From the NCBI GenBank assembly GCA_017508135.1, contig JAFVZN010000078.1:1-42009 (forward strand): a DNA stretch of 42,009 nucleotides, given 5' to 3'. This document shows, in pieces, positions 4,002-42,009 of the stretch. The notes beneath the pieces are model-generated. The model was given only the letters and a program-made list of their open reading frames with translations. It did no database searches and was not told the origin of the DNA. Made by a program: the position numbers and the translations under genes. Position 1 is the first letter of the stretch. The number at the start of each line of letters is the position of its first letter. Source of the DNA: Lentisphaeria bacterium. GTDB lineage: Bacteria > Verrucomicrobiota > Lentisphaeria > Victivallales > Victivallaceae.

Positions 4002-4489
4002 CAGCCCTGCTAATGCCAGCGGGCAAGAAAAAAATCCCCTCCCCGAAGAGGAAGAGAATTCTGGACAAGCTCACCGCCGGAGGCGCGGGGCGACAGCCCT
4101 GCTAATGCCAGCGGGCAAGAAAAAAAATCCCCCTCCTGAAGAGGAAGAGAATTCTGGACAAGCTCACCGCCGGAGGCGCGGGGCGACAGCCCTGCTAATG
4201 CCAGCGGGCAAGAAAAAAATCCCCTCCCCGAAGAGGAAGAGAATTCTGGACAAGCTCACCGCCGGAGGCGCGGGGCAACAGCCCCGCTAATGCCAACGGG
4301 CAAGAAAAAAAATCCCCCTCCTGAAGAGGAAGAGAATTCTGGACAAGCTCACCGCCGGAGGCGCGGGGCGACAGCCCTGCTAATGCCAGCGGGCAAGAAA
4401 AAAATCTCCTCCTGAAGAGGAAGAGAATTCTGGACAAGCTCACCGCCGGAGGCGCGGGGCGACAGCCCTGCTAATGCCAACGGGCAAGG
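4002..4489. repeat. 92-bp tandem repeat, 5 full copies plus a partial copy (AB-AB-C)
   Basis: Units start at 4002, 4094, 4187, 4279 and 4372, with a partial copy from 4463. Lengths are 92, 93, 92, 93 and 91 bp. Each unit contains CAGCCC(T/C)GCTAATGCCA, an A-run, a C-rich stretch, AGAGAATTCTGGACAAGC and GCCGGAGGCGCGGGG. Copies 1 and 3 share the variant TCCCCTCCCCGAAG; copies 2 and 4 share TCCCCCTCCTGAAG and one extra A. So a 185-bp dimer was itself duplicated. Each unit can form small hairpins (GCCC(T)GCT/AGCGGGC and GCGCC/GGCGG). The array lies between convergent genes. The 127 bp after it (4490-4616) has no gene. There are no unique spacers, so it is not CRISPR. Confidence 0.93.
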
Positions 4490-4616
4490 CGGAAGTATCG
4501 CGACGCTATCCGCGAGTTTTTCCGAGGCGGCGGCGAGGGAGTGGACTGCTGTCCTCGACCGAAACGACGTCCGACGGAAAGGCTCGCGGGAGCAAGCGAG
4601 ACAACGCCGACTCTAC

Positions 4617-13830: not shown

Positions 13831-14604
13831 ATGAGAAAGTCGTCAGAGCATCGCCGTAAAGTCCAGGAGCAGCAAAATACCCCGCTTTTCTTGAAAAAGG
13901 GAGAGGGGTGCGGGGAGAGGGGAAAAACCTCTTTTCCCGTGAAAAGAAGTTTTTCCCCTTTCCCCGCAAGCCGTTTCACTTTGATCGAATTGCTGGTTGT
14001 CATCGCCATCATCGCTATACTGGCGGCGTTGCTTTTACCGGCGTTACAGAGTGCGCGGGCGCGGGGGCGGACTGCTTCCTGTCTCAGCAATTTGAAGCAG
14101 ATAAATCATGCAACAGTTTCCTACACTGATTCTTACGACGGATATTATCCTTACTACAAAAATGCGAATGATACTTCACACAAAAAAGTTATCAAACACA
14201 TGGGTCTGGTATATGACAGCAACTATGCAAAAAACACTCCTGTGTTTCATTGTCCGTCCAACAGTGCCGACCGGCAGGTCTGGGGCAGCTACGGAGCGCA
14301 CTTCGAATTGAAAGCCGGCTTGAAAGCCTCCCAGATAACCAATCCGCAACTGGTTTTATGGGCCGATGCCGAAAGCTGGCGCGTAAGCAGTTACGATATG
14401 ACATACAGCAACAGTGCCAAAGAGAGGAAACTGCGTTACCGCCACGGCAGACGTCAGGCGACATCGGACATCAAAACCGCTTCCGATTCGATCAACTACA
14501 CCAGTTGGGACGGACGTGCCGTCAACACCAGAGAGGTCATATCGCGGACTTACGGCGAAAGAAATTCTGCTGAGATGAAAAAATATTGGGCAACGAAAAA
14601 GTAA
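13831..14604 (+). CDS. prepilin-type (type II pseudopilin-like) secreted protein with repeat-derived leader
   Basis: A 257-aa protein whose class III signal sequence [18 protein letters not shown] spans residues 49-66 and includes the essential Glu at +5. After the hydrophobic helix, [24 protein letters not shown] is typical of the many pseudopilin-like proteins of Lentisphaerota and Planctomycetota. The leader is unusually long (48 residues) and largely encoded by a palindromic repeat (13866-13967) also found between genes elsewhere in this window. The residue before the Phe is Arg rather than the usual Gly, so cleavage by prepilin peptidase is uncertain. The RBS AAGGGAG precedes the ATG. 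The neighbours are a regulator, an oxidoreductase and two secreted glycan-acting proteins. A surface or substrate-binding role is inferred. Confidence 0.88.
13866..13967 (+). repeat. copy of dispersed palindromic repeat A inside the pseudopilin leader
   Basis: The segment begins GGAGCAGCAAAATACC, comparable with GGGAGCAAAAAATACT in the intergenic copies. It ends in an inverted repeat with 27-bp arms (13910-13936 and 13941-13967, loop CCGT) differing at only two positions. The loop-proximal half CTCTTTTC...GAAAAGA is the same as in the other copies. It encodes [13 protein letters not shown], matching PSFPVKRGFPLP of the intergenic copies in the same frame. Confidence 0.8.
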
Positions 14605-36302: not shown

Positions 36303-38015
36303 TCAATATACCTCCCGTATATCAATAATGTTCAACTGTGCCGGTTCTCCGGGCTGCTGCTTGTTCAGCTGCGGTGTTGCCAGGACATCCAGAACGCGGG
36401 AACTGAATTCGCTGACGGTACGGTTGAAGGCGATAAAGTCCATCTGACCGTGGCGGCTCTGCAGAGTTCCCCGGGTATGGGCACCGCCGCCGATGGCTCC
36501 GCACCGGATGACCCGCAGATCGTTGAAGCGGTAAACCGGTTTCTGATTGCTGTGACCGAATGGCGACAGACGTTCCAGACAGGTGAAGAACTCCGGAGTC
36601 AGTTCCTCCAGGTGAGCTTCCCCGTCATAAGCGATAAAACGTTCAAGTTCCGACGGGGCGATCTGCTTGCGGATCTCCTTGTCCATCTCTTCAAAGAACG
36701 GCGCGATATTCTCGGTTTTCAAACCGATACCGACTGCCATCGGGTGACCGCCGTAACGTTCCAGCAAGTGGGAACTGCGGCTGAGAACTTCCACCAGATT
36801 CAAGTTGGCAATGCTTCTGCCGGAACCGTAGGCTTCGTCACCCTGAATGGTCAGCACGATGGTGGGACGGTTGTAATCCCGGGCAAGCCGGGAAGCTACG
36901 ATACCGATGACCCCCTGATGCCAGTTTCTTCCGGCGACCAGAAGGGAATATGGGCTCTGCCAGGCGAGATTGCGTTCTATCTGCTCTCTGGCATCCTGAT
37001 AGATTTCCTGCTCCTTCTCCTGTCGGCTGCGGTTGAACTGCTCCAGTTGTCCGGCGCAGTTGTAGGCATCGACGATGCACTCGGATTCCAGCAGTTTCAG
37101 AGCGACATTTGCATCTCCGACACGCCCGGCGGCGTTGATCCGGGGAGCGAGACGGAAGGTGATGTCGGAGGGGACAAGTTCGGAACGGATGCGGGAACTT
37201 TCGATAAGAGCCCGGATGCCGGGACGGAGCTGACGGCGGAGGGCTTCGATACCGTACTTGACCAGAATGCGGTTTTCACCGAGCAGCGGCACGATATCAG
37301 CGACTGTTCCCAGAGCAACGTAATCGAGAACCTCTTCCAGATTGGTCTGGAAACCGCCGAGATTGTTTTCGCGTCCGTACTTCACAAAGGCGTGAGAAAG
37401 TTTAAACGCGGCACCGGCTCCGGAGAGCAGTTGGAGATCTTCCAGTTCCGGATAAACCTTGGGGTTGATGACGGCAAGAGCCTTCGGCAGTTCGGAACCT
37501 GCTTCGTGGTGGTCGGTGACGATGACATCGATACCCAAAGCAACGGCATTTTCGACCGCTTCACAGCTGGTGATACCGCAGTCGACGGTAACGAGGACAC
37601 CGCACTTACCGAACATCTCAAGAGCTTTTTCCAGAGATTCCGGAGTGAAACCGTAACCGTCATCGAAACGGTGGGGAATGAAGGAGTTGACAATTGCTCC
37701 ATTCTGACGGAGGACCAGAGCCAGCAGAGCACTGGCAGTGATGCCGTCGGTATCATAGTCACCGTGGATGAGGATCGGTTCCCGGTCGGCAATGGCCTGC
37801 CACAAGCGGGCGGAGGCATCCTTTATTCCGGGGAAACGGTAAGGATCGCTCAGGTTGGCGAGCCGGGGGTTGATGAAATCGCGTATCTGATCGACGGAGA
37901 TGCCCCGCGAGGCAAAGTAGACCGCGATCGGACGGGGGAATGAAAATTTCTGTTGTATCAGATCAATATCCTGATCCAGAAAATTTCCGGACTGTTTCCA
38001 ATTTTTAGCACCCAT
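36303..38015 (-). CDS. recJ: single-stranded-DNA-specific exonuclease RecJ
   Basis: A 570-aa RecJ. The DHH phosphoesterase motifs are HGDYDTDG (D86, D88, D90), TVDCGITS with D145 and VTDHHEAG with D168, H169, H170. The DHHA1 domain follows with NWHQGVIGIVASRLAR, GSGRSIANLNL and RYGGHPMAVG, and then the OB-fold region. It degrades ssDNA 5' to 3' in recombination and mismatch repair. In the 70-bp gap to rnfA a stem CCGGAGACGG/CCGCCTCCGG (36268-36291) occurs without a T-run, so it is not called as a terminator. Confidence 0.96.
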   Translation of the reverse strand: MGAKNWKQSGNFLDQDIDLIQQKFSFPRPIAVYFASRGISVDQIRDFINPRLANLSDPYRFPGIKDASARLWQAIADREPILIHGDYDTDGITASALLALVLRQNGAIVNSFIPHRFDDGYGFTPESLEKALEMFGKCGVLVTVDCGITSCEAVENAVALGIDVIVTDHHEAGSELPKALAVINPKVYPELEDLQLLSGAGAAFKLSHAFVKYGRENNLGGFQTNLEEVLDYVALGTVADIVPLLGENRILVKYGIEALRRQLRPGIRALIESSRIRSELVPSDITFRLAPRINAAGRVGDANVALKLLESECIVDAYNCAGQLEQFNRSRQEKEQEIYQDAREQIERNLAWQSPYSLLVAGRNWHQGVIGIVASRLARDYNRPTIVLTIQGDEAYGSGRSIANLNLVEVLSRSSHLLERYGGHPMAVGIGLKTENIAPFFEEMDKEIRKQIAPSELERFIAYDGEAHLEELTPEFFTCLERLSPFGHSNQKPVYRFNDLRVIRCGAIGGGAHTRGTLQSRHGQMDFIAFNRTVSEFSSRVLDVLATPQLNKQQPGEPAQLNIIDIREVY

Positions 38016-38132: not shown

Positions 38133-38290
38133 CCTGCGGCGGTGCATTGTTGGCAATTTCGCGCCTTGCGGATGGAACAGGCCGTGCAGCGACCAACGGG
38201 AGCAAAAAATACTTCGCTTTTCCCGGAAGGGGTGGTGTGTGGGGAGGGTAAACCCTCTTTTCTCGTGAAAAGAAGTTTTTCCCTTCCCCC
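38133..38290 (+). repeat. repeat B followed by repeat A, intergenic copy 1
   Basis: The repeat-B core CCTGCGGCGGTG...GGCAATTTCGCGCCTTGC (38133-38169) is followed at 38189 by GCGACCAACGGGAGCAAAA and an imperfect palindrome (38241-38262 with 38267-38289). The frame TGAKNTSLFPEG, then GKPSFLVKRSFSLPP, matches the other copies. The 560 bp between recJ and the gene at 38577 hold only these repeats and a promoter. Confidence 0.85.
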
Positions 38291-38310
38291 GGAATTCCGG
38301 CATCTTTTAC

Positions 38311-38483
38311 AAACGCTATATTCCCATTGAGGGGAGATAATTTGATAAGCTTTTTGCGACCAACGGGAGCAAAAAATACTTCGCTTTTCCCGGAAGGGGT
38401 GGGGTGTGGGGAGGGGAAACCCTCTTTTCTCGTGAAAAGAGGGTTTCCCCTCCCCACAAGTCATCTCCTCTTTTCGGGAACAG
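38311..38483 (+). repeat. repeat A, intergenic copy 2, with perfect 24-bp palindrome
   Basis: Begins AAACGCTATATTCCC and carries GGGGAG then TTG at 38342, GCGACCAACGGGAGCAAAA at 38356, and a perfect inverted repeat with 24-bp arms 38406-38429 and 38434-38457 (loop TCGT). A 50-codon frame from TTG 38342 to TAA 38494 encodes FLRPTGAKNTSLFPEG and VKRGFPLPTSH, and ends shortly after. The same 173-177-bp unit recurs in reverse at 41780-41956. Confidence 0.93.
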
Positions 38484-38517
38484 CGCATTTATAAAAGACG
38501 CCTGCCGGTGTCTTGCC

Positions 38518-41096: not shown

Positions 41097-41744
41097 ATGG
41101 AAAAATATTACACCACATTCGCCAGAGATAAATGGAATCAGGACGATTGGCTCGTTGTCCGCAGTCCCCGCTGGGAAGATGTGAGCCATTGGATACAGCG
41201 CGACGACTGCATTTCCAACTACGTTCCGGACGACCTCAAGCCCGAAGATATGCAAATGGGACGTGACCGCACCGGCGAAAGTTACATCAGTATGCTTTTG
41301 AAACAGCCGGTTTCCGGCAGTGCCCGTCTTTCGACGACCTGCGTTTTCCACAGCCGCATGGCGCCGCTGATCGTGCTTTCACGCGAACTCGGCCCCATCC
41401 ACCATGAACATCTGGAAGTCGTCCTTTACGATCGCGGCGTCAATTTGTGGCACCACTTCTACCGCGACGGCAAACCGTCGTGGAAACTGCTCTCCTTTAT
41501 CGAACTCGATCTGGCTATCGACGAAAAGCACACTCTCACCGCCGAAATGATCGTCACCCACAAGGGAAAATTCCTGCTGATGGGATGCGACGGCAAGACC
41601 TTCGACTGCCGCCTTGCCGATGATTGGCCGGAAACATACTACGTCGGCTTCACCGGATGCGAAGGCAGAAACAGCTTCTATGATTTCAGCGTCATCCCCG
41701 GCAGAACCGATTCCGAGGCGATGAAAGAACGCGTCTCTGATTAA
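41097..41744 (+). CDS. protein of unknown function, possible concanavalin-A-like fold
   Basis: A 215-aa protein with no signal peptide, start ATG 41097 with AAGGAG upstream. It is rich in Trp and beta-strands; WHHFYRDGKPSWKLLSFIEL and YYVGFTGCEGRNSFYDFSV at the end resemble the edge of LamG/glucanase-like beta-sandwich proteins. I do not recognise a named family. A role in recognising or cleaving glycans is conceivable. It ends next to the inverted copy of repeat A. Confidence 0.72.
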   Translation: MEKYYTTFARDKWNQDDWLVVRSPRWEDVSHWIQRDDCISNYVPDDLKPEDMQMGRDRTGESYISMLLKQPVSGSARLSTTCVFHSRMAPLIVLSRELGPIHHEHLEVVLYDRGVNLWHHFYRDGKPSWKLLSFIELDLAIDEKHTLTAEMIVTHKGKFLLMGCDGKTFDCRLADDWPETYYVGFTGCEGRNSFYDFSVIPGRTDSEAMKERVSD

Positions 41745-41779
41745 GTCGTTTTTCATGATGACAAAACAGGCGGAAAGCT

Positions 41780-41956
41780 CTGTTCCCGAAAAGGGAGATG
41801 ATTTGTGGGGAGGGGAAACCCTCTTTTCACGGGAAAAGAGGGTTTCCCCTCCCCACACCCCACCCCTTCCGAGAAAAGCGAAGTATTTTTTGCTCCCGTT
41901 GGTCGCAAAAAGCTTATCAAATTATCTTCCCCCCACACAAAGGGAATATAGCGTTT
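41780..41956 (-). repeat. repeat A, copy 3, inverted, with perfect 24-bp palindrome
   Basis: This is the reverse complement of the 38311-38483 unit with few differences. The 24-bp arms are 41805-41828 and 41833-41856 (loop ACGG on the plus strand) and are perfectly complementary. GGGAATATAGCGTTT (41942-41956) is the complement of the unit's start. On the minus strand a frame from TTG 41920 to 41753 encodes FLRPTGAKNTSLFSEG and GKPSFPVKRGFPLPT, then a different tail. Confidence 0.93.
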
Positions 41957-42009
41957 CAAAAAGCTCTGTTCACGGGAAAAGATGGTTTCCCCTCCCCACA
42001 CCCCACCCC
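41957..42009 (-). repeat. repeat A, copy 4, truncated by the window end
   Basis: Minus-strand sequence from 42009 reads GGGGTGGGGTGTGGGGAGGG, then the left half of the palindrome with one change and a decayed right half. The array therefore continues beyond the window. Confidence 0.8.

Follow-up and report, generated by a model that had tools for sequence, protein, structure and literature searches.

The window analysed here, a stretch of 42,009 nt from a Lentisphaeria bacterium, contains an intergenic palindrome whose arms match at every position, and it raises the question of what keeps such arms perfect in separate copies. The first-pass annotation offered recent spread, gene conversion, or selection on the structure as RNA or DNA. 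It described the palindrome as 24 bp long; its perfection was borne out (100% complementary arms around the 4-nt loop TCGT), but the arms are one pair longer, i.e. 25 bp. The second copy, placed at 41805-41856, is likewise perfect, with 25-bp arms (41804-41828 and 41833-41857) around the loop ACGG. The arm sequences of these two hairpins are the same and the differences are confined to the loop bases. The related hairpin in a pseudopilin gene has the two mismatches reported earlier, over arms that we measured at 28 rather than 27 bp. In addition, we found two more hairpin copies and a mirror-symmetric purine block, and each hairpin is preceded by a small conserved stem-loop (Table 1). As single-stranded DNA, 38346-38460 folds with -41.6 kcal/mol, compared with -16.6 +/- 2.8 for shuffled sequences (z -9), and this structure is thus not due to chance.

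Table 1. Copies of the repeat, their parts and neighbouring genes in the window
Feature	Position	Strand	Remarks
recJ	36303-38015	minus	
ComEC-like gene	from 38577	plus	label from a sub-threshold DUF4131 match
Full-length copy, recJ / ComEC-like intergenic region	38311-38486	+	
Ends of this copy	38315-38341; 38462-38486		GCTATATTCCC..GGGAGATAAT; CATCTCCTCTTTTCGGGAACAGCGC; resemble MITE ends of relatives
Stem 1	38351-38375	+	TTTTTGC-GACCAACGGGA-GCAAAAA; conserved loop, co-varying stem
Stem 2	38384-38397	+	CTTTT-CCCG-GAAGG; weak, short AT stem that includes T.G pairs
Third strand	38394-38404	+	AAGGGGTGGGG; mirror image of purine arm 38408-38418
Purine-first arm, perfect hairpin	38405-38429	+	
Pyrimidine arm, perfect hairpin	38434-38458	+	
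Tandem neighbour copy	38189-38291	+	hairpin 38238-38291 decayed and chimeric
Second full-length copy	41777-41956	-	hairpin 41804-41857; 3' of the gene at 41097-41744, past its stop codon
End repeats of the second full-length copy	41777-41802; about 41926-41956		
Fourth copy	41959-42009	-	cut by the contig end
Copy in the 5' end of a pseudopilin gene	13848-13968	+	CDS 13831-14604; read in frame
Third strand of the pseudopilin-gene copy	13894-13908		
Arms of the pseudopilin-gene copy	13909-13936; 13941-13968		two mismatches

Read 5' to 3' on its + strand, the element is composed of stem 1, stem 2, a third purine strand, the purine arm, the 4-nt loop and the pyrimidine arm. Stem 1 is a T/C/G-rich stem around an almost fixed loop (GACCAACGGGA, GACAACGGA or GACAAACTGGA), while stem 2 follows the pattern CTTTT..AAAAG and precedes the purine spacer and the long hairpin. 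Covariation was seen in stem 1 as well: outside its GC/GC core, 125 distinct contexts form 3.33 pairs, a value that drops to 1.23 once flanks are exchanged between copies. The unit is a mosaic, as the module of stems 1 and 2 was also found lacking the hairpin and fused to arrays of short palindromes. At four loci of genome G029 (L033, L176, L148 and L256) short perfect palindromes spaced by GTGAAG are joined directly to this module, and these arrays make up another mosaic repeat system that coexists with the first. The tandem pair of copies at 38189-38486 recurs on contig C13. The window also carries a tandem repeat at 4002-4555 (five units with a period of about 92 nt and 60-98% identity), which overlaps the end of an open frame.

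Hosts and mobile forms of the repeat

A DNA search gave dozens of matches in the source genome (G000) and matches in 23 of 60 genomes, the source genome included, all of them in the same genus. With a covariance model built from 35 copies, the repeat was found in 27 of 34 species-level genomes of one gut Lentisphaeria genus, to which it is almost confined (137 genomes of the order searched). Of the few matches outside the genus, two were checked: the one in G068 is a pilin copy, the one in G112 a related composite. The exact motif for the two small stem-loops occurs in 59 places in G029, the best-surveyed genome, and its reversed control pattern in none. Among named public records, those with the motif are metagenome-derived genomes of Lentisphaeria, including a set from roe deer cecum; a pattern match in a 'Raskinella' record (L109) is without the hairpin and was taken as chance. 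The element was not found in phage records by blastn, and an Rfam search gave no match at the gathering score, just sub-threshold matches to generic long hairpins. The data are draft metagenome genomes in which genes were called from open frames alone. In G000, G019 and G015 many contigs end inside the element; the repeat therefore breaks these assemblies, and the copy counts are minimum values.

MITE-type ends occur in five genomes, and the repeat has no coding capacity. In G000, G002 and G015 the hairpin lies within a MITE with the ends GGCTCTGTTCCCG.../...CGGGAACA(A/G)AGC, and some copies are flanked by 9-bp target duplications. Terminal inverted repeats together with target duplications were found for the form present in these three genomes (TTACTTTTT, TCTCTCAAA, TTATGGCAA, TTTTTGTTT, TTTTTGTGA, TAATTTATC, TTTTGTCAA and TTTCGTGAA). 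A search over all copies showed an excess of target duplications in the MITE form only. Most copies abutting stop codons or lying in pilin genes have incomplete ends, and most of the stop-abutting ones do not combine terminal inverted repeats with a target duplication. The MITE form itself shows no orientation bias towards stop codons (left 9, right 9 of 23). The recent spread proposed earlier applies to a part of the family, the MITE form with 9-bp target duplications.

The REP-associated tyrosine transposase (RAYT) that the first-pass annotation suggested looking for did not turn up: PF01797 (Y1_Tnp) had no match in the source genome (73% complete) or in the element-rich relatives searched, namely G002, G004, G011, G014, G017 and G019. 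PF01609, the IS4-type DDE transposase considered as an autonomous partner, is absent from G015 and G002. At five loci of G015 and G002 (L277, L285, L287, L291 and L293) a shared insert, ATCCGCCGTCGCCAAGGCTATGGCGGGAC..GAAGCCGACGTTCGGCTTC, replaces part of the MITE hairpin. Two MITE copies of G002 (L278 and L286) have lost the pyrimidine arm with their ends intact, L278 retaining the 9-bp target duplication, and are possibly products of hairpin-induced deletion.

Placement at gene ends and within pseudopilin genes

The position of the copies relative to genes was assessed by scoring opposing open frames of at least 100 codons with a stop codon within 60 nt of the hairpin end. Such a stop codon was present for 68 of the 79 testable non-pilin copies, at a median distance of 12 nt, as against 12.7% for random positions in the same loci and 13 of 72 for the other end of the element; it is the hairpin end that faces the gene. 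In G029, 36 of 38 non-pilin copies abut an opposing stop codon. On the window the hairpin at 41804-41857 obeys this rule and the copy at 38311-38486, situated between the starts of recJ and the ComEC-like gene, breaks it. An all-against-all comparison of flanks was left unused because other upstream repeats dominated it.

One orthologous copy is identical at 127 of 129 positions in two species, beside a gene with 69-82% nucleotide identity. Its left flank is 92% identical, and interspecies recombination is therefore possible for this 99% identical copy. At another orthologous site the same stop codon bears two different element types; gene conversion between dispersed copies is possible.

A further group of at least 27 (about 30) copies lies in the N-termini of pseudopilins, in open frames, using two of the three reading frames. 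These usually occur between two FTLIELLV copies, 141-201 nt apart and always at a multiple of 3; the pilin copy on the window has no upstream FTLIELLV. Downstream of the pilin copies FTLIELLV is uniform, whereas the upstream copy is specific to each gene; this would be consistent with cassette transfer between paralogues by homologous recombination. The GTG of the loop was considered as a pilin start codon and ruled out, since the pilin copies use two different frames. In-frame inserts of 45-65 aa between two FTLIELLV copies, some of them tandemly duplicated, were seen in 13831-14604 and at L181, L183 and L199-L202.

Covariation of the arms and of a third strand

The first-pass annotation asked for a comparison of arms for compensatory changes and counted independent drift against its reading. 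In the intergenic copies the arms do not drift independently: double-sided changes between copies were found in 16 of 25 pairs, and 97% of cells are paired. As the first sample, from G029 and G031, had been picked by a model that rewards pairing, a second set was gathered by the stem 1-stem 2 motif to offset this, copies less than 70% paired being dropped. Among its 82 distinct non-pilin copies, 64 are perfect over 18-21 bp, and the mismatches comprise 16 G.T and 15 A.C, i.e. there is no wobble preference. Selection on one RNA strand should favour the wobble pairs of that strand. The near-equal numbers of G.T and A.C therefore point to selection on the hairpin as DNA and not as RNA, although haplotypes are shared among copies. 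In pilin genes the hairpins are imperfect (0 of 30 perfect).

The covariation extends beyond the two arms. The purine spacer that precedes the hairpin mirrors the purine arm (e.g. AAAAGGGATGGGGG-TGT-GGGGGAAGGGAAAA), written in a base code with G opposite arm G, A or T opposite arm A, and T opposite arm C. For 89 distinct spacer/arm pairs the mirror match is 11.8, against 8.97 with spacers swapped between copies (z 15.7). The fit of 55 distinct 12-nt cores is 10.6 of 12, compared with 8.16 for swapped and 6.6 for shuffled sequences; a direct-repeat reading of the spacer was rejected with a fit of 5.7 of 12, far below the mirror. At positions 3-7, G is associated with G and A with A or T (p 1e-7 to 1e-9, a significance inflated by the kinship of copies), and third-strand T stands opposite arm A in 34 of 201 cases and opposite arm G in 5 of 441 (p 1e-13, again among related copies). 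Where the purine arm contains a C, the third strand has T in all seven distinct cores with clear register (L277, L280/L292, L263, L212, L222, L038 and L042), at several helix positions; four loci with a C near the register (L281, L284, L298 and L020) were set aside because of decayed arms or unclear register.

Of 34 distinct arm cores, 25 are fitted by their own third strand at 10 or more of 11 positions, while the third strands of other arms do so in 6.3%; natural arm/third-strand pairs include GGGGAGGGG/GGGGTGGGG, GGGGGAAGGG/GGGATGGGGG and GGGAGCGGGG/GGGGTGAGGG. Since the copies share descent and may have undergone conversion, copy counts overstate independent events, and the proper unit is nearer to the 34 arm types. 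Some copies have one or two third-strand mismatches, and in many MITE copies of G002 the purine arm and third strand match while the pyrimidine arm is decayed.

The third strand at 38394-38404 co-varies with its purine arm by G.G:C, A.A:T, T.A:T and T.C:G. Older oligonucleotide work indicates that T is tolerated over C:G in purine-motif triplexes. The other three triads are those of antiparallel purine-motif triplexes (PMC10609763). A pyrimidine-motif reading on the other strand would not fit, as third-strand T becomes A. With mirror and inverted symmetry combined, the blocks follow each other on one strand in the order third strand, purine, pyrimidine, which is the definition of class I (PMC4666352). 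We therefore propose, with a probability of roughly 0.7, that the hairpin forms the centre of a mobile, mosaic repeat and that the maintained fold of this DNA would be a class I purine-motif intrastrand triplex. Of the alternatives of RNA and DNA left by the first-pass annotation, the double changes, the lack of wobble bias and the third-strand covariation speak for selection on DNA rather than on RNA.

The hairpin might instead be kept as RNA, in the form of a stable 3'-UTR stem-loop that blocks 3' exonucleases or aids transcription end, as proposed for REPs. The sense RNA would form the stem and loop, and the position 3' of stop codons in one orientation suits such a role, REPs being likewise mostly downstream of coding regions (PMC3733652). 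Nevertheless, we consider this unlikely as the principal explanation, because wobble pairs are not tolerated and neither the mirror-symmetric third strand nor the rule of T opposite C is explained by an RNA hairpin. The sense strand past the hairpin, CCCCACCCCTTC.., has no T run, and the element is thus not a canonical intrinsic terminator. An RNA function may be an added role beside the triplex.

Perfection could also be mutational, the arms being kept identical by quasi-palindrome correction through template switching, or by gene conversion. This would account for double changes with few intermediates, for whole haplotypes of third strand and arm common to several copies, and for the different haplotypes at orthologous stop codons. 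However, template switching perfects inverted repeats and cannot write a mirror block, let alone one that co-varies by base-specific rules, and we know of no copying process that makes a mirror repeat; selection on a triplex-like fold is therefore taken as the best reading. The pilin copies, with the same arms, also stay imperfect, and the mutational origin seems improbable.

We regard it as similarly improbable that the repeat is only a young non-autonomous transposon (MITE) with copies perfect through recency, as the terminal inverted repeats starting with GGCTCTGTTCCCG and the 9-bp target duplications of G000, G002 and G015 might suggest. Many paired and triple changes separate the copies, which occur in 27 of the 34 species-level genomes, hence most of them are not recent duplicates. 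Moreover, most stop-abutting copies are without complete ends, and between arm types the unpaired parts have substantially diverged while the arms are still perfect.

Folding of the G-rich block as a G-quadruplex, with an incidental hairpin, is very improbable: a motif of four runs of at least three G spans the third strand and purine arm in 55 of 81 non-pilin copies, but is missing in the other 26 and in 22 of 34 pilin copies, the mirror match persists, and a quadruplex needs neither A/T matching nor a perfect pyrimidine arm, nor would it lead one to expect T opposite C.

Relation to known repeats and possible role

Bacterial intrastrand triplex motifs were described decades ago, in copies so nearly identical that they give little basis for judging whether the triplex itself is kept. 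The closest precedent is the BoxC/PIT/TM repeat of E. coli, likewise short, dispersed and multi-copy (Holder et al. 2015, PMC4666352), in which a single strand also folds back twice with G.G:C and A/T.A:T triads (e.g. CCCTCTCCC-GGGAGAGGG-GGGGTGAGGG). TM is of class II (pyrimidine arm, purine arm, third strand) and 34-37 nt long, and its copies are highly identical and always intergenic, with no strand bias or preferred gene distance (PMC4666352). In contrast, the Lentisphaeria repeat is of class I: in all copies read, the third strand precedes the purine arm. Its hairpin spans 21-28 bp and is accompanied by additional 5' stem-loops. The repeat occurs in many co-varying types and in a MITE form, and it is located directly 3' of stop codons in one orientation as well as in frame within genes. 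Intrastrand-triplex repeats are thus known, and what is new is the family, the class, the three-strand covariation and the gene-end placement. The comparative evidence is unusually strong, and should the DNA indeed fold as a triple helix, the repeat would provide an exceptionally clear example from nature of such an element maintained by selection.

REP/BIME repeats with RAYT are also palindromic, present in many copies, mostly downstream of genes, sometimes intragenic, and arranged in mosaic clusters (PMC3733652). The Lentisphaeria hairpin is longer than their 20-40 bp units (Di Nocera et al. 2013, PMC3733652), and inspection of the alignment and consensus showed no unpaired GTAG or CGTC foot. 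A RAYT/REP origin is not supported, given this missing foot and the missing Y1_Tnp match in the genomes searched. With bacterial MITEs the repeat shares MITE-type ends in five genomes, 9-bp target duplications in some copies and a non-coding nature; it differs in the incomplete ends of most stop-abutting and pilin copies, and PF01609 is absent from G015 and G002. Rickettsia palindromic elements are palindromic repeats inserted in frame in protein genes, a feature shared by 27 pilin copies, whereas here one gene family, the pseudopilins, is affected at one site, usually between two FTLIELLV copies; to our knowledge, their sequence is unrelated to the Lentisphaeria repeat. Synthetic polypurine reverse-Hoogsteen hairpins consist of two mirror-symmetric polypurine blocks with a short loop and clamp a polypyrimidine strand (PMC5220335), while the Lentisphaeria arrangement is natural and its pyrimidine strand is tethered in the same molecule.

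Triplex formation would begin when the strand becomes single-stranded, through replication or supercoil-driven extrusion, and the arms pair into a hairpin of 21-28 bp. The upstream purine block would then fold back antiparallel into the major groove of this hairpin, giving about 10-14 base triads. If, as we infer, the triplex forms in the cell, it might constitute a DNA-level barrier or boundary at gene ends, i.e. a roadblock for a polymerase or fork, or a supercoil sink, and the same hairpin in mRNA may also shield the 3' end.

A broader suggestion, which we put forward tentatively and with less than even confidence, is that in a bacterial lineage a DNA triple helix, and not a hairpin alone, serves as a regular element of gene ends, set 3' of stop codons in a fixed orientation and maintained by selection that is legible base by base, including the rule of T opposite C:G. 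If true, these would be among the first natural triplexes backed by comparative covariation. The approximately 34 arm types with matching third strands amount to a natural mutagenesis experiment that predicts allowed triads. They make selection for a DNA triplex testable by short oligonucleotides, and the placement at gene ends gives it a testable role.
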